Shown here: positions 8,496-63,129 of the stretch, in pieces
Layout of the letters: every line of letters begins with the position of its first letter
How positions within the stretch are numbered: position 1 is the stretch's first letter
Source: an uncultured Flavobacteriaceae bacterium
GTDB taxonomy: Bacteria > Bacteroidota > Bacteroidia > Flavobacteriales > Flavobacteriaceae
Direction of reading: 5' to 3'
Length of the DNA stretch: 64,000 bases
Assembly: GCA_947494715.1 (NCBI GenBank)
Contig: CANLWG010000003.1
Coordinates: forward strand, 62,001-126,000
Program-made: the position numbers and the translations under genes
Notes under the pieces: generated by a model
The model's input: only the letters and a program-made list of their open reading frames with translations
Databases searched by the model: none
Told to the model about the DNA's origin: nothing

Positions 8496-10944
8496 ATGTT
8501 CAAAAACTACATAAAAATCGCTTTCCGGAACATATGGAAGAACAAGGTATTTTCCTTAATCAACGTCATAGGCCTTTCCATTGGATTAAGTGCAGCTTTT
8601 GTTATCGGCGCAATCATCTATTACGATTTAACCTTTGATAAATTCCATCCTGATGGTGAGCGGATTTATCGTGTGACTACTGAATTCACATCACCAGATG
8701 GTAATTTTTATAATCCGGGCGTATCGGTACCATTGAGGCAGGCCTTAAAGGAAGAATTTGCCGGAATAGAAATCGTAAGCCCCCTATATACAATTTCCAT
8801 GCATCAAGTGGAGAATACCGAAACCGAAAAAATATTCAAAAGCCCCGAAAATATAATTCATACGGATGGTAATTACTTTCAATTGTTTCAATACAAATGG
8901 TTGGCCGGAGATGCAAATGGAATCCTATCAAATCCAAATGAGGTAGTGTTGACGGAAAACAGGGCCAAAAGGTATTTTCCAAACCTATCACCAAATGAGA
9001 TTGTTGGTAAGGTATTGACATACAATGACACCATATCTTTGAATGTCACCGGGGTTGTCGAAAATTTTAAAGACCGGAGCGACCTCATTTTTGAGGAATT
9101 TATTTCATATAGGACCATAGGGGATATAGGACTAAAGAACAGGTTGGGGAGCACAAATTGGTATAACACAAATAGCACATCCCAATTATTTGTAAAACTA
9201 AGCGAAAAAGCCAGTGTGGTATCCGTCCAAAAACAGCTGGACCTTTTGGCCGCCGAGCATCTCGATAAGGAAATGGTCGCGTTCGGCCAAAAAAGGAGGT
9301 TTGATTTACAGCCTTTGGCCGATATCCATTTTAATCCCAATTACGGAACGTATGACTACACAAGAAGTCAGGCCAGTAAACCCGTTTTAATCAGTTTATC
9401 ATTTGTTGCCCTGTTCCTTCTGCTTTTGGGCTGTATCAATTTCATTAACTTGAATACGGCGCAAGCGACACAACGTGCCAAGGAAATAGGGATTCGTAAA
9501 ACCCTTGGGGGGTTCTAAAAAACAATTGGTTTTTCAATTTTTGGGAGAGACTTTTTTATTGACCGCTACCGCCGCTGTAGTATCCTTGTTTTTTTCGTCT
9601 TGGTTGATTCGGTTATTTTCCGACTTTATTCCTCGAGGGGTAAGTTTTGGACTTTTTAATAGTCCGGTATTGATCGGTTCGGCGATTCTTTTAGTATTGG
9701 TATTAACTTTGTTATCAGGATTTTATCCTGCCCTTGTCCTTTCCCGTTTTAAGCCGGTATCTGTACTTAAAAATCAAATTTTACCGGGCAATGACAAAAC
9801 TTCCCTCCGAAAATATTTGACGGTTTTTCAATTCGCGATTGCACAAGTCTTTATCATTGCTACCGTACTGGTCGGTAAACAGATTCACTATTTGATGACC
9901 AAGGACATGGGCTTTAAGACCGAAGCCATTGCATATTTGAGGACGCCTTATAATGAGCCTTCAATCGACAAAAGAATCCGCCTTTTAGAAAAACTAAAAA
10001 CAGACCCTCATATACAGGACGTTGTTTTAGGGGGAAATCCACCAGCCTCTCGAAGTACTTTTTCCTCATCGGTTGTTTATCGAAATGAAGAAAATGAAGT
10101 GCAGGCCAGCCTACAATGGCTTTATGGGGGCATCGACTACAGACGCCTTTATGGAATACCTTTATTGGCAGGGAGGGATATATTGAATGATACCATCAAG
10201 GAGTATGTAATCAATGAAACCTATATGAAACTTTTGGGCTTCAAGGAACCCATTGAGGCGATTGGCAAATCTTTGATATTGGAAGGAGAGGCATATCCTA
10301 TAGTAGGAGTGATGAAAGATTTTTACCAACGTTCTTTAAGAACCACCATTAAACCCATGGCCTTGGTCGGCGATTGGGACCGTAACGAATATTCGCAGTT
10401 TAATACTATTCATTTTTCTATAGGAGGAAATAAGACATCAGATTTAACCAGTGATATTGCCTTGGTCGAAAATGCTTGGAAATCTGTTTATCCCAATTAC
10501 GATTTTGATCCTCGATTTATCGATGATACCGTTTCAAGGTTCTATGAACAAGAACGCAAAACCTCGGCCCTGTTAAAATGGGCCACTGGCCTTACTATCC
10601 TTATCAGTTGTTTGGGACTCTTAGGTCTGGTGATTCACACTACCGAACGCCGAACAAAGGAAATCGGAATTCGGAAAGTATTGGGTGCCACACTGGCACA
10701 GTTAAACCTATTGCTCTGTAAGGAGTTTTTGGTGTTGGTCGGCATTGCCTTCGCCATAGCCGCGCCAATAGCTTGGTGGGGCTTGGACTATTGGTTGCAG
10801 GGCTTTGCGCATAAGACGGTCCTAAGTTGGTGGGTCTTTTTCCTTGGTGGGATTACCATGCTCTTTATCGCCTTGGCAATTATCAGTATTCGGACGATTG
10901 CCGCGGCGAATGCCGATCCTGTAAAGAGTTTGAGGACTGAGTAA
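8496..10944 (+). pseudogene. FtsX/MacB-like ABC permease, array copy 4, split by a +1 frameshift
   Basis: Two overlapping reading frames together make one permease. Frame 1 (8496-9518, 340 residues) runs from MFKNYIKIAFRNIWKNK through helix 1, periplasmic domain 1, helix 2 and into the first coupling helix (QRAKEIGIRKTLGG), then reads F-stop. Frame 2 (from about 9505 to 10944, up to 479 residues) resumes with GGSKKQLVFQFLGETFLL and contains the rest, including RRTKEIGIRKVLGATLAQL and the tail DPVKSLRTE. Removing one G from the G6 run at 9507-9512 restores LGGSKKQ and an 815-residue protein, the normal length. Related copies are 10 and 24, which also have GG at this point. It may be a real disrupted gene, a phase-variable one, or an assembly or sequencing error. 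No internal start with a ribosome site is apparent at 9505 (TTG). Confidence 0.88.
9507..9512. other. G6 homopolymer at the frameshift in permease copy 4
   Basis: Six consecutive G are followed by TTCTAA. With six G the frame reads LGGF-stop; with five it reads LGGSKKQL, matching the aligned position of all sibling permeases. The tract therefore carries the disabling indel. Confidence 0.85.
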
Positions 10945-10998
10945 AGGGTTCTTTGACAATTGATTTTGTCTTTCTGATCGGTACTCTCCAAAAACGAT

Positions 10999-11035
10999 GT
11001 AAATATATTGTACACCTTCTGTCCAAATATTTTAC
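10999..11035. promoter_or_regulatory. Degenerate activator-type palindrome (copy A)
   Basis: Left half GTAAATATATTGTACA (10999-11014), spacer CCTTC, right half TGTCCAAATATTTTAC (11020-11035). The right half is identical to the right half of the perfect palindrome at 35706-35742. The left half matches the ideal complement at 11 of 16 positions. It lies about 65 nt upstream of a sigma-54-like box, a normal place for an enhancer-binding-protein site. Confidence 0.6.
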
Positions 11036-11098
11036 ACATAATTGCTTTTTTTCTTTGATTTTATCTATAAGATATTGATTTTAAGAGTTTTGCACATA

Positions 11099-11113
11099 TG
11101 GCATGAAGATCGA
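11099..11113 (+). promoter_or_regulatory. Candidate sigma-54-like -24/-12 element (copy A)
   Basis: TGGCATGAAGATCGA. The TGGCA block matches the -24 consensus. The -12 part reads TCGA rather than TTGC, so the match is incomplete. Its counterpart at 35807-35821 (TGGCATAGAAATCGA) keeps the same bases at the key positions and nearly the same distance from the palindrome. The start codon of copy 5 is about 165 nt downstream. Confidence 0.4.
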
Positions 11114-11277
11114 AGTCAATACCAATGGCTTTGGTTTCACTACTTGGCGGTGCATCTTGAGACAGCCGTACAAAATGAAACTTTTAACAACTTTGGAAAT
11201 ATCCATAAACACGAAATAAACTAGTTGAATCATATAACTAAATGTACTGAAAGGAAAATCATCAAAAAACGGAAATC

Positions 11278-13662
11278 ATGTTGTTGAACTTTATCAAAAT
11301 CGCGCGTCGAAAATTATGGAATAAAAAAGGAAGATCTTTTACCAAATTATTTAGCCTGGCCATTGGGATAGTGAGTCTGTTTTATATTGCCATATATCTG
11401 TATCAGGAGTTGAATTATGATAGTTTTCACTCCAACTATACCAAAATTGCCAAGATCAATACAACCATAGAGTCCCCTACTGGAAACCTTTCGCTGGGTC
11501 TTAGCGCCGTACCGGTAGGCCCCTATGTTAAGTCCAAATCCCCTGCGGTGGAGGAATTTGTTCGTATCAACAAGGAATATGGAAGTCATGCAATTAAACA
11601 TGGGGACAAACTATTTTCCGAAAGCGAGAACATTTTTTATGCGGATCCAGCCTTTTTTAAGGTGTTCGATTTTGACTTGATTGCCGGAAATCCGATATCT
11701 GCCTTGGATGGCCCGGATAAAATAATTATCACCGAAAGTACGGCCATAAAGTACTTTGGAAATGTAAATGCCTTGAACAAAGTATTGCTTTATGACGATG
11801 TGCCATTTACGGTATCCGGCATTATCGCTAATATCCCTTCCAATTCGCATTTGCAGTTCGATTTTTTGATTTCCATGGCGACTTTCCTTAAAAGCAGACC
11901 CAATGTAGATCAAAACTGGGAATGGTTCCCCATGAACACGTATTTCTTGTTAAAAGATACCCAAAGCGGTGCCAATTTAGGCGAAGTACTACGGACGGTT
12001 CCGCAGTACCTCGAGAAAAGTAGCACCAATGACCAATATAAATTATCCATTGAACCTCTTAACGGGTTACATTTCAGTTCTCCAAAATTGGGCGAATTGG
12101 GGACAAAAGGAAAGCGATCCAACCTGTATATCCTTTTTACCATAGGTGTTATGATACTCTTATTGGCGGTCTCCAATTTTATAAACCTAACTACGGCCCA
12201 ACTTTCTGTAGAAGCAAAGGATGTTTCCATAAAAAAGACCGTTGGGGCCTCTAAACGGGATATTTTTAAACAATTTTCGGTTGAATCGCTATTGCTCACG
12301 TCGTTTGCGACGATAGTATCGATATTGCTAATCCTGTTGACATTCCCAATTTTTGAAGACCTTTTGGGAGGTAACTTTGATACTGATTTCCTTTCAAATC
12401 CCCTTTTCATTTTACTTCTCCCTTTGAGTCCTATAGTACTCACTTTATTGGGAGGCATTTATCCGGCAGTCAAGTTCGCCAGGATTTCAACAATACATAA
12501 ACCCAAACCGGATGGCAAGTATAATAATGTCCTGAATACAAGGACATCTTTATTAATTTTTCAGTTTGCCATCACAAGTGCCCTGGTAATAGGATCATGT
12601 ATCATTTATTATCAATTGAACTACATCCAAAATCAGGATTTAGGGATGGATACAGCCCACAAAATTGTACTGGATTATGGGCCAAATTCAAAAATAGGGA
12701 CAGCCTTTGAGTCATTACAACAAGAATTAGGGGGTATTCCAGGAGTGGAGAGCGTAACCTTTAGCTCCCACGTACCTGGCCAGACGCCTAATGGAGTGGC
12801 AACACAACTATTGGATGTAAACGGACGAAGTAGCAACGGGGAAATAAATCTAAATCTCGTGGACTACAACTTTGTAGAAGATTATGGATTACAGCTAGTA
12901 GCAGGTAGGGATTTTAGGAAAGGAAAGGCGGACGAGACCTCGGCGCTTATCTTGAACGAGGCGGCCGTAAAGGCTTTTGGATATGAAAATCCGGAAGACA
13001 TTTTAGGGGCGTCCTTTGAACAATGGGGAGGGAACGGTACAGTAATCGGGGTGGTGAATGACTTTAACTATTTATCCCTTCATGAGGATGTAGGATTGCT
13101 ATCCTTAAAAGTGTGGCCGGAACAATTTATGAAAATTACGGTTACGATTGCACCCAACAATGTTAAGGGTACATTGGAAAAGTTGGAAAGTAAATGGGCT
13201 TCGCTTTATCCCAGTATCCCCTTCAACCATTATTTTGTAGATGACAACTTTAAGACCCAATATGATAAGGATCGGCAATTTGCTACTATTATTAATGTGT
13301 TTACTATCATTTCCATTTGTATCGGTATTTTGGGGTTGATAGCCTATGCCAGGTTCTGGTGCGAAAGACGCAGAAAGGAAATGTCCATACGCAAAGTTTT
13401 GGGCGCCAGTGCTATGCTGCTCGTTTGGAAACTCTTAAAAAGCTTTAGCATTCCAGTATTGATCGGTTTTAGTATTGCCATTCCTATCTCCTACTATTTG
13501 GGTGGGCAATGGTTACTTGAATTTGCCTATCGTTTTGATCTAAACTGGTATTTCTTTGCTTTGCCCTTGGCCCTACTTCTGGTATTTGTATGGTTGTCCG
13601 TAGGCACGCAGACCTTGAAGTTGGTCTTGGCCAATCCAGTAGATAATTTAAAAGAAGAATAA
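11278..13662 (+). CDS. FtsX/MacB-like ABC permease, array copy 5 (divergent)
   Basis: A 794-residue permease, one of the most divergent copies. It opens MLLNFIKIARRKLWNKKGR, lacking the AWRN signature. The first coupling helix is VEAKDVSIKKTVGASKRDI (about 311-329), where KDVSIKK replaces KEIGVRK. The second is RRRKEMSIRKVLGASAMLL (about 697-715). Helix 6 reads ICIGILGLIAYARFW instead of SCLGLFGLA. The tail is NPVDNLKEE. Both periplasmic domains are present and the length is normal, so it is probably functional but may couple differently. It is the first gene after the predicted promoter region 10945-11277 and is followed after only 11 nt by copy 6. Confidence 0.9.
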   Translation: MLLNFIKIARRKLWNKKGRSFTKLFSLAIGIVSLFYIAIYLYQELNYDSFHSNYTKIAKINTTIESPTGNLSLGLSAVPVGPYVKSKSPAVEEFVRINKEYGSHAIKHGDKLFSESENIFYADPAFFKVFDFDLIAGNPISALDGPDKIIITESTAIKYFGNVNALNKVLLYDDVPFTVSGIIANIPSNSHLQFDFLISMATFLKSRPNVDQNWEWFPMNTYFLLKDTQSGANLGEVLRTVPQYLEKSSTNDQYKLSIEPLNGLHFSSPKLGELGTKGKRSNLYILFTIGVMILLLAVSNFINLTTAQLSVEAKDVSIKKTVGASKRDIFKQFSVESLLLTSFATIVSILLILLTFPIFEDLLGGNFDTDFLSNPLFILLLPLSPIVLTLLGGIYPAVKFARISTIHKPKPDGKYNNVLNTRTSLLIFQFAITSALVIGSCIIYYQLNYIQNQDLGMDTAHKIVLDYGPNSKIGTAFESLQQELGGIPGVESVTFSSHVPGQTPNGVATQLLDVNGRSSNGEINLNLVDYNFVEDYGLQLVAGRDFRKGKADETSALILNEAAVKAFGYENPEDILGASFEQWGGNGTVIGVVNDFNYLSLHEDVGLLSLKVWPEQFMKITVTIAPNNVKGTLEKLESKWASLYPSIPFNHYFVDDNFKTQYDKDRQFATIINVFTIISICIGILGLIAYARFWCERRRKEMSIRKVLGASAMLLVWKLLKSFSIPVLIGFSIAIPISYYLGGQWLLEFAYRFDLNWYFFALPLALLLVFVWLSVGTQTLKLVLANPVDNLKEE

Positions 13663-35641: not shown

Positions 35642-35705
35642 ATGCGCTTCCTAAAAAAAGGGGGCTACTGGGTACTTCTACAAAGAAAACACTCTATCTC
35701 GGATC

Positions 35706-35742
35706 GTAAAATATTTGGACAGCTCTTGTCCAAATATTTTAC
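35706..35742. promoter_or_regulatory. Perfect activator-type palindrome (copy B)
   Basis: GTAAAATATTTGGACA (35706-35721), spacer GCTCT, TGTCCAAATATTTTAC (35727-35742): 16 of 16 pairs match. The right half is repeated exactly at 11020-11035. A two-fold symmetric site upstream of a sigma-54-like box fits a dimeric enhancer-binding regulator. The regulator itself is not in the window. A hairpin terminator is less likely, because the stem is AT-rich and has no following T-run. Confidence 0.7.
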
Positions 35743-35806
35743 ATAAAATAGATTGAAAATTTTCCATTTACAATGTAAAGATTTGGCTGTAAGTCATTTA
35801 TGATTT

Positions 35807-35821
35807 TGGCATAGAAATCGA
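35807..35821 (+). promoter_or_regulatory. Candidate sigma-54-like -24/-12 element (copy B)
   Basis: TGGCATAGAAATCGA, with GG at 35808-35809 and the -12 G at 35820. It starts 64 nt after the palindrome (63 nt in copy A). The -12 half is off consensus (TCGA against TTGC) in both copies, so the sigma factor assignment is tentative. The distance to the start of copy 15 is about 100 nt. Confidence 0.4.
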
Positions 35822-35923
35822 TTTGAATTGCAACGTAGTTGCAGCTTTGGTTCTTGTTGCACGCTAAATGGTCATGCAAGAGCGAGGTAAAAGGAACTAT
35901 TTAGACCTTTAAAATAACGTCAC

Positions 35924-38290
35924 ATGTTGAAGCACCATCTATTTCTATTCTTTCGAAATATTAAGAAGAACAAAAGCATCTTTTTGATTAACACCGTAGG
36001 CCTTGGTATAGGAATCGCCTCTTTTTTGGTATTGGCCGTCTATGTATACAATGATCTTACCTATAATCATTTTAATACAAACCTTTCTAACATCTATCGT
36101 ATTCGCGAAGGGGAAAGTTTTCAGACCAAAGGACCTTTATTGCCTAAAATATTGGAAGATATCCCAGAAGTGGAAAACGGGACACGGGTTTTTGATTGGG
36201 ACGGATATCGATTGAGTTATGGGGAAGTGGCCTTTGAGGAAAATTTGAAGTATGTGGACAATGACTTTTTTTCCATATTTACCTTTCCATTTGTTGAGGG
36301 TTCTGCCAAAAATGCGATTCAAGATAAATTCGGGGTCGTCATAAGTACTGATTTTGCCAAAAAATATTTTGGCGATACCCAGGCCTTGGGCAAACAGTTT
36401 CAAGTAAAGTTCGAGGATGTATTCCTTACGGTAAATGGGGTGGTGGATATTCCCAGGAATTCTTCCATCCAATTCGATATTGTGGCCTCCTACGAAACGG
36501 GAGAAACCATCTCCCCGTGGATCAAGGAGGCACATGATTGGTATAACACCTTTTCCGAGAGCTATGTGCTTTTGGCGGATGGCACAAATCCTAAAAGTAT
36601 AAAAACTAAGTTGCAAACTATTGTAACGGAGAACTTTCTCCCCGTTGGTAAAAACGAGACCGATTTGAACTTGTTCCCTTTTGCCGACTATCACAGCACG
36701 GTGGAATCCAACAGTACGCTTATTGTGATTCTGGCCCTAGTCGCTTTGGGCATCTTAGGTATAGCCATTGTGAATTTTATCAATCTTACGATTACCAATT
36801 CCTTGACCCGTACGAAGGAAATAGGCATTAAAAAAGTTTTTGGGGCCACGGGGAATTTCTTGTTCCGCCAGATTATGACTGAAAGCATGCTAATGGGGCT
36901 GGGTGCCCTGTGCTTGGGAATAATCTTGACCTTGGCATTATTACCCACCTTTAACGGACTATTTGAAACGAACTTAAGCTTCAACCCTTGGGAAAACCCT
37001 TTCCTGATCTATGTCCTTTTGGGGATTTGGTTGATCGTTGGCATATTTTCTGGGATAGTACCATCGTTAGTATGGGCCCGTGGAAAATTGGTAGATAGCC
37101 TACAGGGTAAACTATCGAACCAGAATAAACCAGGGTTTTCCAGATATTCTTCGATAGTTGTGCAATTTGTAATCGCCATTGTACTTATATCTGGAACTTT
37201 TTTGATACGTAAGCAAATCAATTACATGATTGATAAGGACCCCAAGTTCGATAGCCAAAATAGTATTGTGGCCCAAACGGACTATTGGCAATATAAAAAT
37301 CTTGAGGCGGCTTCACAAAACCTAGAGATTATTTCCAAGGAGCTGGAAGCCACCCCTTACGTGGCCACAACAAGCTTTACAGGAAGCATACCCGGGGATT
37401 ATGATGAAAACTACAATACGTTCTACCCAGAGGCCAAAAGCAGTCTACCCAACATAGGTCTTAGAAAGTCTTATGTGGGAAAAAATTATTTTAAGACCAT
37501 GGGCATCCCTGTGTTGAACGGACACGGTTTTGACCAACCCCCGACATCCTTAAAAAATACCGTGGTCTTGAACAGAACTGCGATGAACAAGCTCGGTTTC
37601 GAAAAAGCGGAAGGGCAAATTATCCGTGAAAGCTCTGAAAGTGGACAACCCTACCGTATTATAGGAGTCATTGATGATTTTAGTTATCAAGGATCGCAAC
37701 ATGAGACACAGCCTTTGGCCCACTTTTATTCGGAACGTGAGAACTTTATGGATTGGGACTATCTAGTGGTAAGAGCTGAAAAAGGCGCAAGTTCGGCAGC
37801 AGTACGGTTGCTTCAAGAAAAATGGAAAGACTTACTGCCCGAGGGTTCCCTGACCCATTTTTTTACCGACAACAAGCTAAATGCATACTATACGGAATAT
37901 AAGCGGGTGAATACCCTTATTACATGTTTCTCCGCCTTGGCCATTATCCTTTCCTGCATAGGTCTTTTTGCCCTGGCATCTTATGCCATGGCCCGCAGGA
38001 CTAAGGAAATTGGTATTCGAAAGGTAAATGGTGCAACAATAACACAAATTCTATCGCTGCTGAACAAGGACTTTTTAAAGTGGGTGGTGCTTGCGTTTCT
38101 GATCGCTGTTCCCCTGGCATGGTATGGTTTGGAGAAATGGTTGGAAGGGTTTGCCTATAAAACAAACATGAGTTGGTGGATATTCGCTTTGGCAGGCCTC
38201 ATTACATTGACCATTGCATTGCTCACCGTAAGTTGGCAGAGCTTTAGGGCAGCGACAGCAAACCCGGTGGAAGCATTACGGGAAGAATAA
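35924..38290 (+). CDS. FtsX/MacB-like ABC permease, array copy 15
   Basis: A 788-residue permease (MLKHHLFLFFRNIKKNKSI). It is a chimera-like copy. Its N-terminus (LFFRNIKKNKS) resembles the 39-54 kb clade, whereas its last third matches copy 14 (RRTKEIGIRKVNGATITQI at about 690-708, then LSLLNKDFLKWV and SWWIFALAGL). The first coupling helix is LTRTKEIGIKKVFGATGNFL (about 294-312). Periplasmic domain 1 is about 20 residues shorter than usual. Helix 4 ends with SGIVPSLVWARG, in place of AGSYPALYLS. The tail is NPVEALREE. It is the first gene after the predicted promoter at 35.8 kb and is followed after 52 nt by the DUF2807 gene. Confidence 0.91.
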   Translation: MLKHHLFLFFRNIKKNKSIFLINTVGLGIGIASFLVLAVYVYNDLTYNHFNTNLSNIYRIREGESFQTKGPLLPKILEDIPEVENGTRVFDWDGYRLSYGEVAFEENLKYVDNDFFSIFTFPFVEGSAKNAIQDKFGVVISTDFAKKYFGDTQALGKQFQVKFEDVFLTVNGVVDIPRNSSIQFDIVASYETGETISPWIKEAHDWYNTFSESYVLLADGTNPKSIKTKLQTIVTENFLPVGKNETDLNLFPFADYHSTVESNSTLIVILALVALGILGIAIVNFINLTITNSLTRTKEIGIKKVFGATGNFLFRQIMTESMLMGLGALCLGIILTLALLPTFNGLFETNLSFNPWENPFLIYVLLGIWLIVGIFSGIVPSLVWARGKLVDSLQGKLSNQNKPGFSRYSSIVVQFVIAIVLISGTFLIRKQINYMIDKDPKFDSQNSIVAQTDYWQYKNLEAASQNLEIISKELEATPYVATTSFTGSIPGDYDENYNTFYPEAKSSLPNIGLRKSYVGKNYFKTMGIPVLNGHGFDQPPTSLKNTVVLNRTAMNKLGFEKAEGQIIRESSESGQPYRIIGVIDDFSYQGSQHETQPLAHFYSERENFMDWDYLVVRAEKGASSAAVRLLQEKWKDLLPEGSLTHFFTDNKLNAYYTEYKRVNTLITCFSALAIILSCIGLFALASYAMARRTKEIGIRKVNGATITQILSLLNKDFLKWVVLAFLIAVPLAWYGLEKWLEGFAYKTNMSWWIFALAGLITLTIALLTVSWQSFRAATANPVEALREE

Positions 38291-38342: not shown

Positions 38343-39065
38343 ATGAAAAAATTAACAACGCTTATCGCGCTCACGTTATGTATTATGATGACCTATGCCC
38401 AACGTGGCAAAAAAGTTAAAGGGAATGGCCATGTCGTGACGGTTGAAAGAACTACAGATACATATGACGGCATTTCCGCTAGTGGATTTTATGATATTCA
38501 GCTAATCGATGGTGCAGAAGGGGAACTAACGCTCGAGGGGGAGGAAAATATCCTGGATAATATCGAAACCGAGGTCAAGAGAGGTACTTTGGTTATCAGA
38601 TCAAAGGATAACAAGCACCTGATTCCTTCTCGTGGCGAAGGCGTTTTTATAACAGTTTCTGTTGATGAAATCGATAAAATCCGCCTATCGGGATCTGGAG
38701 ATTTTATCGGAAAGAAGACACTCAGAACCCATGATATGGATATTCAAGTATCGGGCGCAAAGCATATCGATTTAACAATCGATGCAACCGATATTACAAT
38801 CGCAACATCAGGCTCTAGCAATATTGACTTAAAAGGGAATAGCGAAGAGCTTAGAATACGGTCTTCTGGCTCTTCCAATGTAAAGGCCTATGGATTGGAA
38901 GTAGATGACGCAACATTGGAACTCTCCGGTTCCTCCGATGTTGAGGTGACGGTAAACGAAACGTTGACATCTAGAGTTTCCGGGTCCGGGAATATCCAAT
39001 ATCGAGGCAATCCCGATAAAGTATTTAATCAAATTTCCGGGTCGGGATCGGTATCGAAGAATTAA
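38343..39065 (+). CDS. Exported DUF2807 (GIN-domain) beta-helix protein
   Basis: A 240-residue predicted exported protein. The signal peptide MKKLTTLIALTLCIMMTYA is followed by Q-R. The mature part carries the DUF2807 pattern: FDGIS-like TYDGISASGFYDIQLIDG at about 40-57, then repeated S-G-S/SGSG turns (LSGSGDF, SGSSNIDL, SGSSNVKA, SGSSDVEV, SGSGNIQY, SGSGSV) spaced about 20-25 residues apart. This suggests a right-handed beta-helix made of short coils. Such proteins are common at the Bacteroidota cell surface or periplasm; their function is unsettled. It stands between copies 15 and 16 on the same strand, so it is probably co-expressed with the permeases. No lipobox was seen. Confidence 0.85.
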   Translation: MKKLTTLIALTLCIMMTYAQRGKKVKGNGHVVTVERTTDTYDGISASGFYDIQLIDGAEGELTLEGEENILDNIETEVKRGTLVIRSKDNKHLIPSRGEGVFITVSVDEIDKIRLSGSGDFIGKKTLRTHDMDIQVSGAKHIDLTIDATDITIATSGSSNIDLKGNSEELRIRSSGSSNVKAYGLEVDDATLELSGSSDVEVTVNETLTSRVSGSGNIQYRGNPDKVFNQISGSGSVSKN

Positions 39066-39246: not shown

Positions 39247-41667
39247 ATGCTAAAACACAATCTAAAACTATTTTTCAGGAACATAGGAAAGCATAAAAGC
39301 ACTTTTTTGATCAATGTTGTGGGCATGTCCACGGGACTTGTTTGTGCTTTGTTCATCACCCTTTGGGTATTGGATGAACTAAGCGTGGACCGGTTTCATG
39401 AAAAGGGTGATCGATTGGTCCAAATATTACAAAACTTGCCTACCCCTAATGGTATAGAAACCGATGAGGCAACGCAAGGGCCTTTGGCCAGTTCGCTCCT
39501 CGACGAGTTTCCCGAAGTGGTACAATCGGCTACTGTTCTGGATAATGCGTGGTTCGAAGGCGAAAAGTTTTTGTTGTCCGATGGAGGTAATCGGTTTTTC
39601 AACTCCGTGAATCAGTTTGTCGGCAAAGACTATTTTAACATGTTTACGTTTCCCCTGCTCTACGGAAATCCAGCGGAAGTACTTGCCCATACCAACTCGG
39701 TGGTCATTTCGGAAGAAATGGCCGAAAAGTTATTTAAAACTACAAATGCGGTAGGTAAAACATTGGAATGGTTGCATGATGAATATGGAGGCTCCTATAC
39801 GGTTTCCGGAGTTTTTAAGAAATTGCCCAAAAACTCCTCGGCACAATTTGATGCCGTGTTCAATATGGAGGTCTTTATTGCACAGAATGAGGATTTAAGG
39901 GATTGGCGCGATAGCGATGCAAAGACTTATGTTCTGCTCAAGCCAAACACGGATTTCATGGCATTCAATACCAAAATCAAAAATTTTCTAAAGACCAGGA
40001 ACGAAAATTTTCCGGAAACCTATCTGGCACAACGCTATTCCGAAAAGTATTTGCATGGCAATTACGAAAATGGTGTGGTTGCTGGCGGAAGAATCCAATA
40101 TGTTCGTTTGTTTTCCTTGATTGCCCTTTTGATATTGATCATTGCCTGTGTCAACTTTATCAATATGGCTACGGCTAAGGCTTCGACCCGTATAAAGGAA
40201 ATCGGCGTAAAAAAATCGGTAGGAGCCAAACGAAAAAGTTTAATGCTTCAATTTGTAATGGAATCGATTATGATGGTAACGGTCGCCATTCTAATAGCAT
40301 TGTTTATCGTTAAATTACTGTTGCCTCAGTTTAATGGTATTTCTGGAAAAGAACTGACCCTGTCTTTTGACCCCAACCTGATATTGGGCATAGTGTTTAT
40401 TACCCTGATAACAGGTATCGCGGCTGGGGCATATCCTGCACTATATCTATCCGGTCTTTCAGTACTGAATGGACTTAAAGGGCAGTTGCTCAAAAGTTTT
40501 GGCGGCAATTTTGCCCGAAAAGGCCTGGTCATATTCCAATTTGTGACATCGGTAATCCTCATTGTATCCGTCGTAATCGTTTACAAACAGATGGATTTTA
40601 TCCAAGACAAAAATTTGGGATTTAATCGTAATAATGTTATTTGGTTCTCATCAGGTGTAATGGGAGCGGACACCGGCAAGGCCGAAGATGTTAAGGAGAT
40701 GGGTACGACCGATATCGAGAACTTTGTACAACTGCTGAGAAATACACCCGGTGTCGTTAACGCCTCCAATTTTAGGCATACGATGATGGCCGATTTCGGG
40801 ACCACTACAGGACTCGATTGGTCAGGAAAGGATACGGAGCAAGATGCGCTTTTTGCTCAAATTGCCGGAGGGTATGATTTTATAGAGACACTACAAATGG
40901 AATTGAAGGAGGGAAGAACGTACTCCAAGAAATTTAAAACAGAAAAGGAAAAAATCATTTTTAATGAGGCGGCCATTGCCCAAATGGGCATGAAAGACCC
41001 GATTGGAAAAGTCATTAATCTTTGGGGAGAGGATCGAGAGATAATCGGAGTAGTAAAGGATTTTCATATCGACAAATTGTATAAAAAAGTCTTGCCCGTA
41101 TTTATGACTTTGAGCGATACCGGATTTGCTTCCAACATTATGGTACGAATGGAACCTGGAACAACAACCGCAACCGTAGGGCGCATAAAGCAGGTGTATC
41201 AGGACTATTTTCTTTCGGAGATGCCTTTTGAGTTCAATTTTTTGGATGATAATTATCAGTCACTTTATGAATCGGAAAAGCGGGTGGCGGCCCTATCCAA
41301 ATATTTTGCAGGTCTGGCCATATTAATCTCTTGTTTGGGGCTTTTCGGTCTGGCCATTTTTACCTCGGAACGAAGAAAAAAGGAAATCAGTATCCGTAAG
41401 GTGTTAGGGCAAAGTGCCGCACAGGTAACGGTTATGCTTTCCAGTGAATTTGCCAAGTTGGTCCTAATATCCGTTATCATTGGCCTTCCAATGGCCTATC
41501 TATTGGCCAAAAATTGGCTTTCAGGTTTTGCCTATCGTATTCCGTTGCAGCTATGGTATTTCTTGGGTGCTGGGATTGTTGCACTTGCCATAGCCATGCT
41601 TACTGTAGGCTCGCAGGCAATACGGGCCGCAAATAATAATCCCGTGGATGGATTAAGGGACGAATGA
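39247..41667 (+). CDS. FtsX/MacB-like ABC permease, array copy 16
   Basis: An 806-residue permease and first member of a tight clade (copies 16, 18, 19, 20, 21) with the opening MLKxxLxLFFRNIxKxKSTFLIN and helix 1 GxSTGLxxxLxI. The coupling helices are STRIKEIGVKKSVGAKRKSL (about 313-332) and RRKKEISIRKVLGQSAAQV (about 709-727), the clade's VKK/LGQS pair. INFINMATAKA replaces INFMNLSTARA. The tail is NPVDGLRDE. A 44-nt stretch at 41524-41567 is identical to one in copy 19 (48885-48928). The 181-nt gap upstream holds no convincing promoter. Confidence 0.92.
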   Translation: MLKHNLKLFFRNIGKHKSTFLINVVGMSTGLVCALFITLWVLDELSVDRFHEKGDRLVQILQNLPTPNGIETDEATQGPLASSLLDEFPEVVQSATVLDNAWFEGEKFLLSDGGNRFFNSVNQFVGKDYFNMFTFPLLYGNPAEVLAHTNSVVISEEMAEKLFKTTNAVGKTLEWLHDEYGGSYTVSGVFKKLPKNSSAQFDAVFNMEVFIAQNEDLRDWRDSDAKTYVLLKPNTDFMAFNTKIKNFLKTRNENFPETYLAQRYSEKYLHGNYENGVVAGGRIQYVRLFSLIALLILIIACVNFINMATAKASTRIKEIGVKKSVGAKRKSLMLQFVMESIMMVTVAILIALFIVKLLLPQFNGISGKELTLSFDPNLILGIVFITLITGIAAGAYPALYLSGLSVLNGLKGQLLKSFGGNFARKGLVIFQFVTSVILIVSVVIVYKQMDFIQDKNLGFNRNNVIWFSSGVMGADTGKAEDVKEMGTTDIENFVQLLRNTPGVVNASNFRHTMMADFGTTTGLDWSGKDTEQDALFAQIAGGYDFIETLQMELKEGRTYSKKFKTEKEKIIFNEAAIAQMGMKDPIGKVINLWGEDREIIGVVKDFHIDKLYKKVLPVFMTLSDTGFASNIMVRMEPGTTTATVGRIKQVYQDYFLSEMPFEFNFLDDNYQSLYESEKRVAALSKYFAGLAILISCLGLFGLAIFTSERRKKEISIRKVLGQSAAQVTVMLSSEFAKLVLISVIIGLPMAYLLAKNWLSGFAYRIPLQLWYFLGAGIVALAIAMLTVGSQAIRAANNNPVDGLRDE

Positions 41668-49124: not shown

Positions 49125-51482
49125 ATGCTAAAACAAAATATCTTACTTTTTTTCAGGAACATCAAAAAGAACAAAAGCACCTTTTTGATCAATATTATAG
49201 GCCTATCTACGGGATTGGCATGTGTGTTATTAATTTGTCTATGGGTAAGCGACGAGTTAAAAATGGATGGGTTTCATGAGAATGAAGGCTTACTTTATCG
49301 GGTAATAGAACATGTACAATTCGATGGCAACAGCATAACGACTTGGAAAGAAACTTCAGGACCGATCGCTGAGGTATTGGTAGATGAAATGCCCGAAGTG
49401 GAATATGCCACTCCCGTTGTTCCAGGTTCTTGGTTTGGAAAGATTTCCCTTTCTGCCGGAGAGAACAATTTAAAAGCAGAAGGGAATTACGTCGGGAAGG
49501 ACTATTTTAATATTTTCTCCTATGGATTGGTCATTGGGGATAAGAATCAGGTACTCTCGAACAGGAATTCCATTGTACTATCCAAGGATTTGGCCATAAA
49601 ACTATTCCAAACGACTGAAAACATCATAGGTAAAGTGGTCGAGCTTGAACAGGAGCAACAATTTCTGGTCTCGGGAGTTTTCGAAGGAACACCTTCCAAT
49701 TCCACGGTTCAATTTGATTTTGCCCTACCTTTTGAATTACTTGAAGACAAACCTCTTGGGGTAGATAGTTGGGGCAGTCTAGGCCCCCAAGTATACGTAG
49801 TATTGAAGGAAGGGACCAATGTGGAAGAGTTGAATAAGAAAGTGGCCATGATCGTAAAGAACAGATATGAAGATTCTACACGTTCCCCGATGCTAGTTCC
49901 TTATTCACAGGATTACCTCTATGGAACGTATGAAAATGGCAAGCAGGTGGGAGGCAGAATCGAGTATGTAAGATTGTTCTCTTTCATCGCCTTGATTATT
50001 CTACTTATTGCTTGTATCAATTTTATGAATCTTTCCACCGCAAGAGCTTCCAGAAGGTTAAAAGAGATAGGCGTAAAAAAAGCTGTGGGCGCAAAACGCA
50101 AGGCTTTTATTTATCAATTTCTAAGCGAATCAATTGTGATGACTTTCATGGCCCTGACCATGGCCCTTGCGTTAGTAGTGCTCTTCCTCCCACAGTTTAA
50201 CATGATTATAGGAAAACAATTGGTGTTGAATTTTGATGGGAACCTTGTTCTTTTAATACTGGGAATTACCTTGTTTACAGGCCTAATAGCAGGAAGCTAC
50301 CCGGCACTTTATCTGTCTGGATTTAATGCGGTAACCGTTCTCAAGGGAAAGCTGGATAGTTCGCTTGGGGAATTGTGGACACGAAAAGGATTGGTCGTTG
50401 TTCAGTTTTCGCTCTCTATTATATTGATCGTGTCCGTTTTGGTGGTATATGGTCAAGTGGAATTTGTACAAAACAGAAATTTGGGATATAACAAGGAGAA
50501 TATTGTCCACTTTAAGGTAGAAGGGAAGATTAAGGAACAATTGGAGGCTTTTGTATCCCAAGTAAAAAAGATACCAGAAGTAGACAATGTATCCAGTACT
50601 ACCCATGATATGGTAGGTCATAATTGGTCCGTTGGGATCGATTGGGAAGGAAGGGATCAAGATAACCCGGTCTCTTTTCAGGTTGCCGGTGTAGACTATA
50701 ACTTAATCGAAACATTAGGAATGGAGATGACTAGCGGACATAGTTTTAGCCGTGATTTTGGGAGCGATAGTACAGGAATTATATTTAATGAAAGGGCCAT
50801 AAAAGCTATGGGCCTTAAGGATCCTATTGGTAAGACAGTACGTTTTATGGGTGAAAAAAAGATTATAGGAACCGTGAAGGATTTTCATTTTAAATCCCTT
50901 CATGAACCAGTAGAACCCCTTTTGATGATCATGATGCCCGATGCCGTAAAAAAGGTTATGGTTCGAATAGCAGCTGGAAAGGAAAAAGAAGCTCTTGCCA
51001 AAATCCAGGATTTTTATCGGTCATTTAATCCGGGGTTTCCATTTGAGTACGAATTTTTGGATGAAAACTACCAGGCACTTTATGAATCCGAACAACGTGT
51101 AGCCACGCTGTCCAAATATTTTGCGGCCATGGCTATATTGATTTCCTGTTTGGGATTATTTGGGTTGGCTATTTTTACCGCGGAGCGACGGCGTAAGGAA
51201 ATCAGTATTCGAAAAGTACTCGGGCAAAGTGTTACCCAGATTACGGTTATGCTCTCCAGCCAATTTGCAAAACTTGTTTTGGTCTCAATATTGGTAGCAC
51301 TGCCTTTAGCTTACATTTTGGTGAATAACTGGTTATCAGGATTCGCATATCGTATTCCCTTGGATGTTTGGTATTTCGTGGCGGCCGGATTGGTATCTTT
51401 GGGTATCGCGATGCTTACGGTAGGTAGCCAGGCCATTGGGGCTGCTAATAAAAATCCCGTAGATGGATTACGGGAAGAATGA
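49125..51482 (+). CDS. FtsX/MacB-like ABC permease, array copy 20
   Basis: A 785-residue FFRN-clade permease (MLKQNILLFFRNIKKNKST). Helix 1 is IIGLSTGLACVLLICLWV, nearly identical to copy 19. The coupling helices are SRRLKEIGVKKAVGAKRKAF (about 308-327) and RRRKEISIRKVLGQSVTQI (about 688-706). The segment before helix 2 is GGRIEYVRLFSFIALIILLI, matching copy 2 rather than its own clade. The second periplasmic domain has HSFSRDFGSDST. The tail is NPVDGLREE. It is bracketed by the two near-identical nested palindromes. Confidence 0.92.
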   Translation: MLKQNILLFFRNIKKNKSTFLINIIGLSTGLACVLLICLWVSDELKMDGFHENEGLLYRVIEHVQFDGNSITTWKETSGPIAEVLVDEMPEVEYATPVVPGSWFGKISLSAGENNLKAEGNYVGKDYFNIFSYGLVIGDKNQVLSNRNSIVLSKDLAIKLFQTTENIIGKVVELEQEQQFLVSGVFEGTPSNSTVQFDFALPFELLEDKPLGVDSWGSLGPQVYVVLKEGTNVEELNKKVAMIVKNRYEDSTRSPMLVPYSQDYLYGTYENGKQVGGRIEYVRLFSFIALIILLIACINFMNLSTARASRRLKEIGVKKAVGAKRKAFIYQFLSESIVMTFMALTMALALVVLFLPQFNMIIGKQLVLNFDGNLVLLILGITLFTGLIAGSYPALYLSGFNAVTVLKGKLDSSLGELWTRKGLVVVQFSLSIILIVSVLVVYGQVEFVQNRNLGYNKENIVHFKVEGKIKEQLEAFVSQVKKIPEVDNVSSTTHDMVGHNWSVGIDWEGRDQDNPVSFQVAGVDYNLIETLGMEMTSGHSFSRDFGSDSTGIIFNERAIKAMGLKDPIGKTVRFMGEKKIIGTVKDFHFKSLHEPVEPLLMIMMPDAVKKVMVRIAAGKEKEALAKIQDFYRSFNPGFPFEYEFLDENYQALYESEQRVATLSKYFAAMAILISCLGLFGLAIFTAERRRKEISIRKVLGQSVTQITVMLSSQFAKLVLVSILVALPLAYILVNNWLSGFAYRIPLDVWYFVAAGLVSLGIAMLTVGSQAIGAANKNPVDGLREE

Positions 51483-62463: not shown

Positions 62464-63129
62464 ATGCTGTTACAACTAAGAAACATTTTTAAATGGGTAA
62501 ATTCAGGAGGCCAACGTCTCTTCTTGCTAAAAGATATCAATCTTAATGTGGAGGAAGGGGAATTTATCTCGGTTATGGGCCCATCGGGTTCTGGAAAATC
62601 TACCCTGCTCAATGTTATTGGGATGTTGGATAATTTTGATGAGGGAGAGTACGAATTTCTTCATGAACCGGTACATACCCTAAAGGAAAAACATAGGGCC
62701 AATCTGTATAAGGAGTACATTGGTTTTGTATTTCAATCCTATCATTTGTTGGACGAGCTTACTGTGAAGGAAAATCTGGAAATGCCCCTGCTGTATAAAA
62801 AATTCAAGGGTACGGAACGTAGGGCCATGGTTGCGGATATGTTGGACCGATTTAATATCGTTGGAAAAAAAGATCTTTTCCCCACACAATTGAGCGGAGG
62901 CCAACAACAACTCGTAGGGGTGGCTAGGGCATTGATCGCCAACCCCAAACTGATTTTGGCTGATGAGCCTACGGGCAACCTGAATTCCGCGCAGAGTGAA
63001 GAAATTATGGGGCTTTTTAAGCAATTGAATTCCGAGGGTGTTACCATTATCCAAGTGACGCATTCTGAAAAGAATGCTGCCTACGGATCAAGGGTTATTA
63101 ACTTATTGGATGGAAGGATGATCAAGTAG
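62464..63129 (+). CDS. ABC transporter ATPase, LolD/MacB type
   Basis: A 221-residue cytoplasmic ATP-hydrolysing subunit with all core motifs: Walker A GPSGSGKST (39-47, Lys45), Q-loop FQSYHLL (Gln91), signature LSGGQQQ (143-149), Walker B LILADE (163-168, catalytic Glu168), D-loop GNLNS (171-175) and switch His200 in VTHSEK. Length and motifs match the LolD/MacB/FtsE branch, which drives FtsX-like permeases. The usual Arg after LSGGQQQ is Leu150 (LSGGQQQLVGVARAL). It is the only nucleotide-binding protein in the window, is encoded last in the array, and is co-directional with and 26 nt from copy 24. It probably energises copy 24 and perhaps many others. The family is certain; the partner set is inferred. 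Confidence 0.95.
   Translation: MLLQLRNIFKWVNSGGQRLFLLKDINLNVEEGEFISVMGPSGSGKSTLLNVIGMLDNFDEGEYEFLHEPVHTLKEKHRANLYKEYIGFVFQSYHLLDELTVKENLEMPLLYKKFKGTERRAMVADMLDRFNIVGKKDLFPTQLSGGQQQLVGVARALIANPKLILADEPTGNLNSAQSEEIMGLFKQLNSEGVTIIQVTHSEKNAAYGSRVINLLDGRMIK

Follow-up and report, generated by a model that had tools for sequence, protein, structure and literature searches.

Organization of the permease array

The window analysed here is a stretch of 64,000 nucleotides (C3:62001-126000, where C3 denotes contig CANLWG010000003.1) from the 5.97-Mb genome of an uncultured Flavobacteriaceae bacterium (G000). Positions 1-63129 of the window, together with the sequence upstream, make up an array of about 107 kb (C3:18374-125129) in which all genes lie on one strand. 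The array encodes a TolC-type outer membrane protein, an HlyD-type adaptor, an ABC ATPase, 42 permease frames, a few other products and a second ATPase, with families assigned for a sample of its genes. BLAST searches with two permeases from the window resolved the 42 frames into 38 full-length permeases and two split pairs, and each of the split permeases consists of two overlapping frames (window 8496-10944 and C3:56331-58762). About 40 double permeases are thus accompanied by one TolC, one adaptor and two ATPases. We know of no established role for large tandem MacB/FtsX permease arrays in Bacteroidota.

The largest gaps between array genes of at least 200 aa measure 333 and 282 bp, and the preliminary description of this DNA had singled out the same two. 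Each contains one copy of the element described below, referred to as A or B, and a third copy precedes the TolC gene. Because the elements occupy the two largest gaps and the position before TolC, the array is probably divided into three units. The first gene behind promoter A (35924-38290, + strand) encodes a MacB_PCD/FtsX double permease of 788 aa, and a DUF2807 gene (38343-39065, +) follows within the same putative unit. Behind promoter B, the first gene (11278-13662, +) encodes a MacB_PCD/FtsX permease of 794 aa. The array is closed by an ABC ATPase gene (62464-63129, +) whose best NCBIfam match, DarD, is below the cut-off, and two permeases tested against the ADOP model (TIGR03434) also scored below cut-off, at 280 and 207 of 622 bits.

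A 39-bp element in the two largest gaps

What drew attention to the locus was a palindrome at 35706-35742, GTAAAATATTTGGACA-N5-TGTCCAAATATTTTAC. Its arms are perfect, as had been claimed, and it is the sole match within the window when up to three mismatches are allowed; 100 dinucleotide shuffles gave 0. For the second gap, the preliminary description reported an exact copy of the right half, TGTCCAAATATTTTAC, at 11020-11035, next to a degenerate left half with 11 of 16 agreeing positions. Both observations were correct (11 of 16 on a recount by eye), but what was taken for half a site belongs to a full second element at 10998-11036. The statement that no other full copy lies between the genes applies to the palindrome, at up to three mismatches within the window, and not to the element.

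The true length of the element is 39 bp. Putative upstream activating element A, at 35705-35743, is composed of 17-bp dyads at 35705-35721 and 35727-35743 with a 5-bp gap between them, and includes the palindrome. Putative upstream activating element B, at 10998-11036, reads TGTAAATATATTGTACA-N5-TGTCCAAATATTTTACA; both elements are annotated without a strand. When compared with the rule TGT-N11-ACA-N5-TGT-N11-ACA, B shows zero mismatches and A shows one (C at 35705). When 135 kb around the array was scanned with a weight matrix, three sites exceeded 8 bits, namely A, B and the copy at C3:18231, which lies outside the window. Half matches inside genes, at 41294-41310 and 51109-51125, were rejected as sites, as they represent codons of the conserved permease peptide L-S-K-Y-F-A. 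Two further half-site matches were seen within permease frames on C22 (85999 and 88684).

A pattern search with up to three mismatches in three genomes of the genus returned 8, 5 and 4 sites, and the reversed-pattern control returned 0. Ten sites, aligned without gaps in both orientations, gave the consensus TGTAAAATAATTGGACA-N5-TGTCCAATTATTTTACA. Since GT..A.....T..AC is invariant in each half of these ten sites, each half can be read as a loose 17-bp dyad, and the two dyads are spaced 22 bp apart, or two helical turns. The ten pattern-found sites were used to build a sequence model, R1, which they necessarily fit; the tests of promoter, spacer, neighbours and co-occurrence described below did not feed into R1. 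Searching 40 relatives with R1 at E <= 0.01 yielded 46 merged sites in 7 genomes (G000, 13; G001, 11; G002, 5; G020, 14; G003, G013 and G023, 1 each), and the surroundings of all 46 were read. With the weight matrix reversed, 0 matches at 20 bits were found in the 1.96 million positions of the loci examined.

The preliminary description interpreted the palindrome as the binding site of a dimeric regulator that controls parts of the array. A regulator site of this sort is supported by the sequence comparisons, but the pairing inside each 17-bp half disfavours a single dimer on the 37-bp palindrome and suggests that the element consists of two dyads side by side. Across the 46 sites, 65% of the position pairs inside these halves are complementary, and the figure is 76% for 52 footprint sites located upstream of regulator orthologues (see below). 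When the same halves are slid by 1-2 columns, complementarity is 28-55%. Pairs 2/16, 3/15 and 6/12 are near invariant. Column composition alone explains these counts, with no covariation, and the pairing therefore supports the existence of two dyads rather than proving it.

The distribution of the sites is summarized by their neighbours. All 46 are intergenic in the sense that they lie outside kept reading frames of at least 100 aa, with a few located inside shorter frames of 61-80 aa. MacB/FtsX permeases follow 33 of the sites, 7 are found between TolC and response-regulator genes, and 6 fit neither category. The preliminary description, which reported no other full copy between the genes, had proposed a genome-wide motif search and held that many copies within genes, or unrelated to permease operons, would count against a regulatory site. 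That search found 13 copies in this genome, and the adverse pattern was not found.

A sigma-54-like promoter at a fixed distance

Promoters recognized by sigma-54 have the form TGGCAC-N5-TTGC, with the two parts at -24 and -12. When both sides of the 46 sites were searched for TGGCAY at offsets 0-250, 35 sites had a match at offsets 61-65, and in 26 of them the offset was exactly 63; the remaining 246 offsets gave 20 matches in total. Among the 35 promoter-bearing sites, 33 have T at +11 and 34 have G at +13, although the search specified neither base. The resulting pattern, TGGCAY-N5-T-N-G, can be described as sigma-54-like: it appears to follow the -24/-12 layout with a looser -12 part, where the second T and the final C of TTGC are not conserved.

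In the window, sigma-54-like promoter A is located at 35807-35820 (+), with TGGCAT at 35807-35812, T-C-G at 35818-35820 and a predicted start near 35833. Sigma-54-like promoter B is located at 11099-11112 (+), with TGGCAT at 11099-11104, T-C-G at 11110-11112 and a predicted start near 11125. Measured from the start that the promoter-like sequence implies, the dyad centre would lie at about -109, within the 80-150 bp range of enhancers. The genome has one Sigma54_DBD match (171 bits), which represents rpoN.

In G000, 11 of the 13 sites have the promoter at 62-63; at the C5 site it is found at 51, and the C4 site, which is the weakest match, has none. Outside the array, permeases with a site are located on C34, C22, C1, C2, C25, C30 and C5. 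Altogether, 11 of the 46 sites are without TGGCAY at 58-68 bp. Near variants (TCGGCAT, ACGGCAT, TTGGTAC and TTGGAAT) are present at some of these, two carry TTGGCAY at 51-52, and the others show nothing clear. Seven of the 11 precede a permease, 1 is in a TolC/regulator gap and 3 have neither neighbour; of these three, one in G002 precedes a gene of the beta-lactamase family. At the 35 sites with a promoter, the promoter side faces a permease in 26 cases, TolC in 6 and another gene in 3. The last group consists of two DUF2807 genes with their own copy of the element (G001 and G020) and one small HTH gene (L108).

Other permeases of G000 are found apart from the element. Longer permeases (open frames of 885-898) are encoded near PadR genes on C16 (about 8.9-14.7 kb) and C27 (about 22-23 kb), where the element is absent, and they perhaps constitute a second, separately regulated class. 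Near the permease unit of C22, a Pycsar-effector-like (PycTM) protein with an HD domain is encoded (L022:11630-12841).

A conserved block between element and promoter

The spacer between element and promoter was analysed for sites with the promoter at the expected place, which were 35 of 46 in the regulon set and 51 of 52 in the footprint set. The spacers of 62-63 bp are no mere duplicates of each other: their mean pairwise identity is 43% in G000 (32% when shuffled) and 38% in G020 (29% when shuffled), whereas four orthologous spacer pairs are 67-75% identical. The columns in common are TAA at -31, YTGATT at -24, A at -15 and TT at -9. The consensus for IHF is WATCAANNNNTTR, and TAA-N4-TTGATT of the spacer corresponds to this consensus read from the other strand. 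Allowing one mismatch, 25 of the 35 regulon spacers contain YAANNNNTTGATW, against about 4 expected from shuffles, and 23 of the matches are exactly at -31; in the footprint set it is present in 33 of the 51 spacers (about 7 expected), with 30 of the matches at -31. Behind element B, the first half of this IHF-like block is an exact YAANNNNTTGATW (11068-11080, +). Behind element A it reads TAA-N4-TTGGCT (35776-35788, +), which has 2 mismatches to YAANNNNTTGATW and begins 31 bases before the -24 element.

The block (window 11068-11092, for example) is a dyad centred at -19, where complementarity reached 49% and 53%, the top values among the 21 centres tried. In the opposite orientation, the IHF consensus matches 27 of the 51 footprint spacers against about 6 expected, with most matches at -19, but only 3 of the 35 regulon spacers, where about 3 were expected. 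Both halves of the dyad are clear in the regulator/TolC gaps, as TTGAT and ATCAA; at permease promoters it is mainly the first half that is seen.

A plain IHF reading of the block is weakened by its being two-sided, with no effect on the main explanation given below. Because of this two-sidedness, and of the opposite-orientation matches in the footprint loci, another dimeric protein could own the block. The genome encodes two PF00216 (HU/IHF-family) proteins, one nearest HU-beta and one nearest IHF-alpha, both of which score below cut-offs. A symmetric site of this kind could suit an HU/IHF-family homodimer or some other dimeric protein. Whatever its nature, a protein bound between enhancer and promoter would provide a reason for the fixed spacing of the two.

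A candidate regulator at the head of the array

The third copy of the element (C3:18231-18269) is located between the TolC gene and a divergent pair encoding a response regulator and a histidine kinase. The regulator (C3:16696-18057, at the array head and outside the window) matches Response_reg, Sigma54_activat and HTH_8, which correspond to receiver, AAA+ and Fis-type HTH domains. Its NCBIfam scores are all below cut-off (AtoC, 369/714; NtrC, 359/559; ZraR, 342/760 bits), and a copy that is 97% identical is present in Ulvibacterium marinum CCMM003. The loop motif of the protein reads GAFTDA in place of GAFTGA; PMC4641369 lists GAFTDA among the variants that would keep activity.

We compared the presence of the motif with that of the regulator. 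Among the 40 relatives, the motif was found in 7, and these are the same 7 that carry a regulator orthologue of at least 62% identity; the next best protein has 52% identity and the motif is absent from its genome. In 149 genomes of the family, searched with stricter filters than the 40, the motif was found in 18 and a regulator orthologue (E <= 1e-150) in 19, with an overlap of 18; both comparisons count related genomes, uncorrected for ancestry, and not independent draws. The lone mismatch, G054, has an orthologue without the motif; its contig breaks off 72 bases before the regulator gene. The site adjoins the regulator gene in all 18 cases that could be read: 16 were listed by the search, and 2 weaker ones (G121 and G125), each with TGGCAC at 63, were found by reading the DNA.

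A footprint set was assembled from the best 80 of 552 relatives and, as a consequence of that choice, represents the closest named orthologue loci. The scan covered 78 of the 80, L156 and L201 being too short, and used a 30-bit cut-off chosen after the scores were known. A site of at least 30 bits lies just upstream of the regulator gene in 52 of the 78. At 50 of these 52 sites TGGCAY is present at 62-65 on the TolC side, facing away from the regulator gene. The regulator gene has no TGGCAY at 62-65 on its own side, and thus gives no sign of autoregulation. The 26 orthologue loci below 30 bits (53-65% identity), which were excluded from the 52, carry mostly Bacteroidales-type names, plus two Aquimarina loci (L202 and L203), and 4 of the 26 still have TGGCAY at 62-65. 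Orthologue loci with a site include Ulvibacterium, Maribacter, Aquimarina and Zobellia.

Two further features of these loci were noted. In 42 of the 52 scored regulator/TolC gaps (L150-L200, L205 and L212), a second TGGCAY is found 23 bp past the first, at 85-88, an arrangement that looks like a stack of two sigma-54 promoters. The double dyad is altered in L225, an orthologue locus labelled Bacteroides, where TGTC-N9-GACA occurs twice, 5 bp apart, with TGGCAT at 63; motif and regulator HTH may have drifted in concert here.

Proposed mechanism and alternatives

We consider it highly probable that the palindrome is part of an enhancer for a sigma-54-dependent response regulator, most likely the C3:16696-18057 protein. 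Candidates of the NtrC family had already been suggested from the window sequence, and comparison across genomes strengthens that guess, because the site has a sigma-54-like promoter at a fixed distance, adjoins an NtrC-type gene at the array head and matches that gene in its presence across the 149 genomes. Two dimers of the regulator would bind the two 17-bp dyads, whose 22-bp spacing would place both on one face of the helix. A bend in the spacer, perhaps introduced by an IHF/HU-type protein on the spacer dyad, would then allow the activator to meet sigma-54 RNA polymerase at TGGCAY-N5-T-N-G; we put the chance that a protein of this type bends the DNA there at roughly even. ATP hydrolysis by the AAA+ domain of the activator would open the promoter. 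The histidine kinase encoded beside the regulator would be the partner of the candidate activator. By this mechanism the elements at C3:18231, B and A would together switch on the array of about 107 kb, with some 40 permeases in three units.

Six strong Sigma54_activat proteins are encoded in this genome, and the element could be a sigma-54 enhancer that is served by a different activator or shared by several. Such an arrangement is improbable, given that the close C3:16696 orthologue is the only sigma-54 activator that tracks the motif (18 genomes shared; 18 versus 19 in 149). Moreover, 33 of the 40 relatives are without this orthologue and have other activators at E <= 1e-40, yet the motif is absent from them at E <= 0.01, and in all 18 readable cases it is a C3:16696-type gene that stands beside the site. 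The element could also be the operator of a regulator independent of sigma-54. TGT-N11-ACA dyads resemble operators of the PadR, AraC or TetR type, PadR genes are located near other permeases of the genome (C16 and C27), and the C5 site has an AraC gene as its neighbour. Nonetheless, the presence of a sigma-54-like promoter at a fixed distance makes an operator of this kind very unlikely. Considered individually, PadR was rejected, as two of the five genes are on C16 and one is on C27 and neither contig has a site at E <= 0.01, and AraC was rejected with a gene adjoining 1 of the 46 sites (C5).

A perfect inverted repeat between two genes can also mark the end of a mobile element or act at the RNA level, as a hairpin or terminator. 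We attach almost no weight to these readings of the palindrome, which precedes a promoter-like sequence at a distance that is fixed across copies and is followed by no T-run, and whose copies keep particular letters in fixed columns, beyond what mere pairing would demand.

The sigma-54 enhancer reading can be taken one step further, although here we are tentative and incline slightly towards doubt. Instead of acting from a freely looping enhancer, the activator might be built into a single fixed nucleoprotein complex in which the spacer dyad is bound by a second dimeric protein. One two-component system would also command a dispersed family of exporter-type permeases, and new members of the family would gain a ready-made promoter cassette. 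The suggestion of a fixed complex comes from the rigid geometry (63 bp in 26 of 35 cases, and a second -24-like element at 85-88 in 42 of 52 gaps), which enhancer, spacer dyad and promoter keep among paralogous promoters whose spacers have only a few fixed columns in common.

Discussion

If the proposed assignment is correct, the candidate activator, the motif and the promoter would offer a direct handle on what the array exports, resists or repairs. Searches for the regulon in marine flavobacteria could use the motif, and the rigid layout offers a way to probe the extent to which geometry matters to sigma-54 enhancers. Activators of sigma-54, dyad enhancers and IHF-bent promoters are already known; the regulon itself appears to be new. 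No published account of it was found in the titles and abstract beginnings among the matches listed, a search that left most subscription journals uncovered. The text of PMC3162934 has no occurrence of Bacteroid, Flavobacteri, FtsX or MacB, and the texts of PMC2725144 and PMC3844500 contained nothing useful on IHF.

Several known systems resemble parts of the one described here. A 2025 survey predicts sigma-54 promoters before COG0577 (FtsX-like) permeases, with Bacteroidota included, and presents this as first evidence of such a link; in the parts consulted, permease enrichment is stated for class Bacteroidia and not for Flavobacteriia (PMC12316311). The same parts of the survey name no activator, enhancer motif or array, and its filter kept GAFTGA only, whereas the candidate regulator here has GAFTDA. 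Among exporters, ADOP and the darobactin exporter DarB/DarC/DarD (NCBIfam) match the permeases, adaptor and ATPases of the array, all below curated cut-offs. The array differs from them in composition, having about 40 permeases to a single TolC, a single adaptor and two ATPases.

In its order of enhancer, IHF-like block and -24/-12-like promoter, the layout resembles that of IHF-aided sigma-54 activators, whose enhancers are located 80-150 bp upstream with looping that is often aided by IHF (PMC4987338). In contrast to those systems, the spacer block here is a two-sided dyad, and both PF00216 proteins score below the HU/IHF cut-offs. The closest parallel for the regulator is enteric NtrC, with which it has in common the receiver, AAA+ and Fis-type HTH domains, the use of 17-bp dyad sites and a position of the site about 110 bp before a -24/-12-like promoter. 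The NtrC site is given in PMC8743547 as the 17-bp dyad TGCACCAnnnTGGTGCA. The element described here differs in the letters of its dyads, in the pairing of two dyads 22 bp apart, in its nearly fixed distance to the promoter and in having exporter-type permeases as targets. What would remain unusual about this system is the rigidity of its layout and the size of the permease family that appears to be under one regulator.
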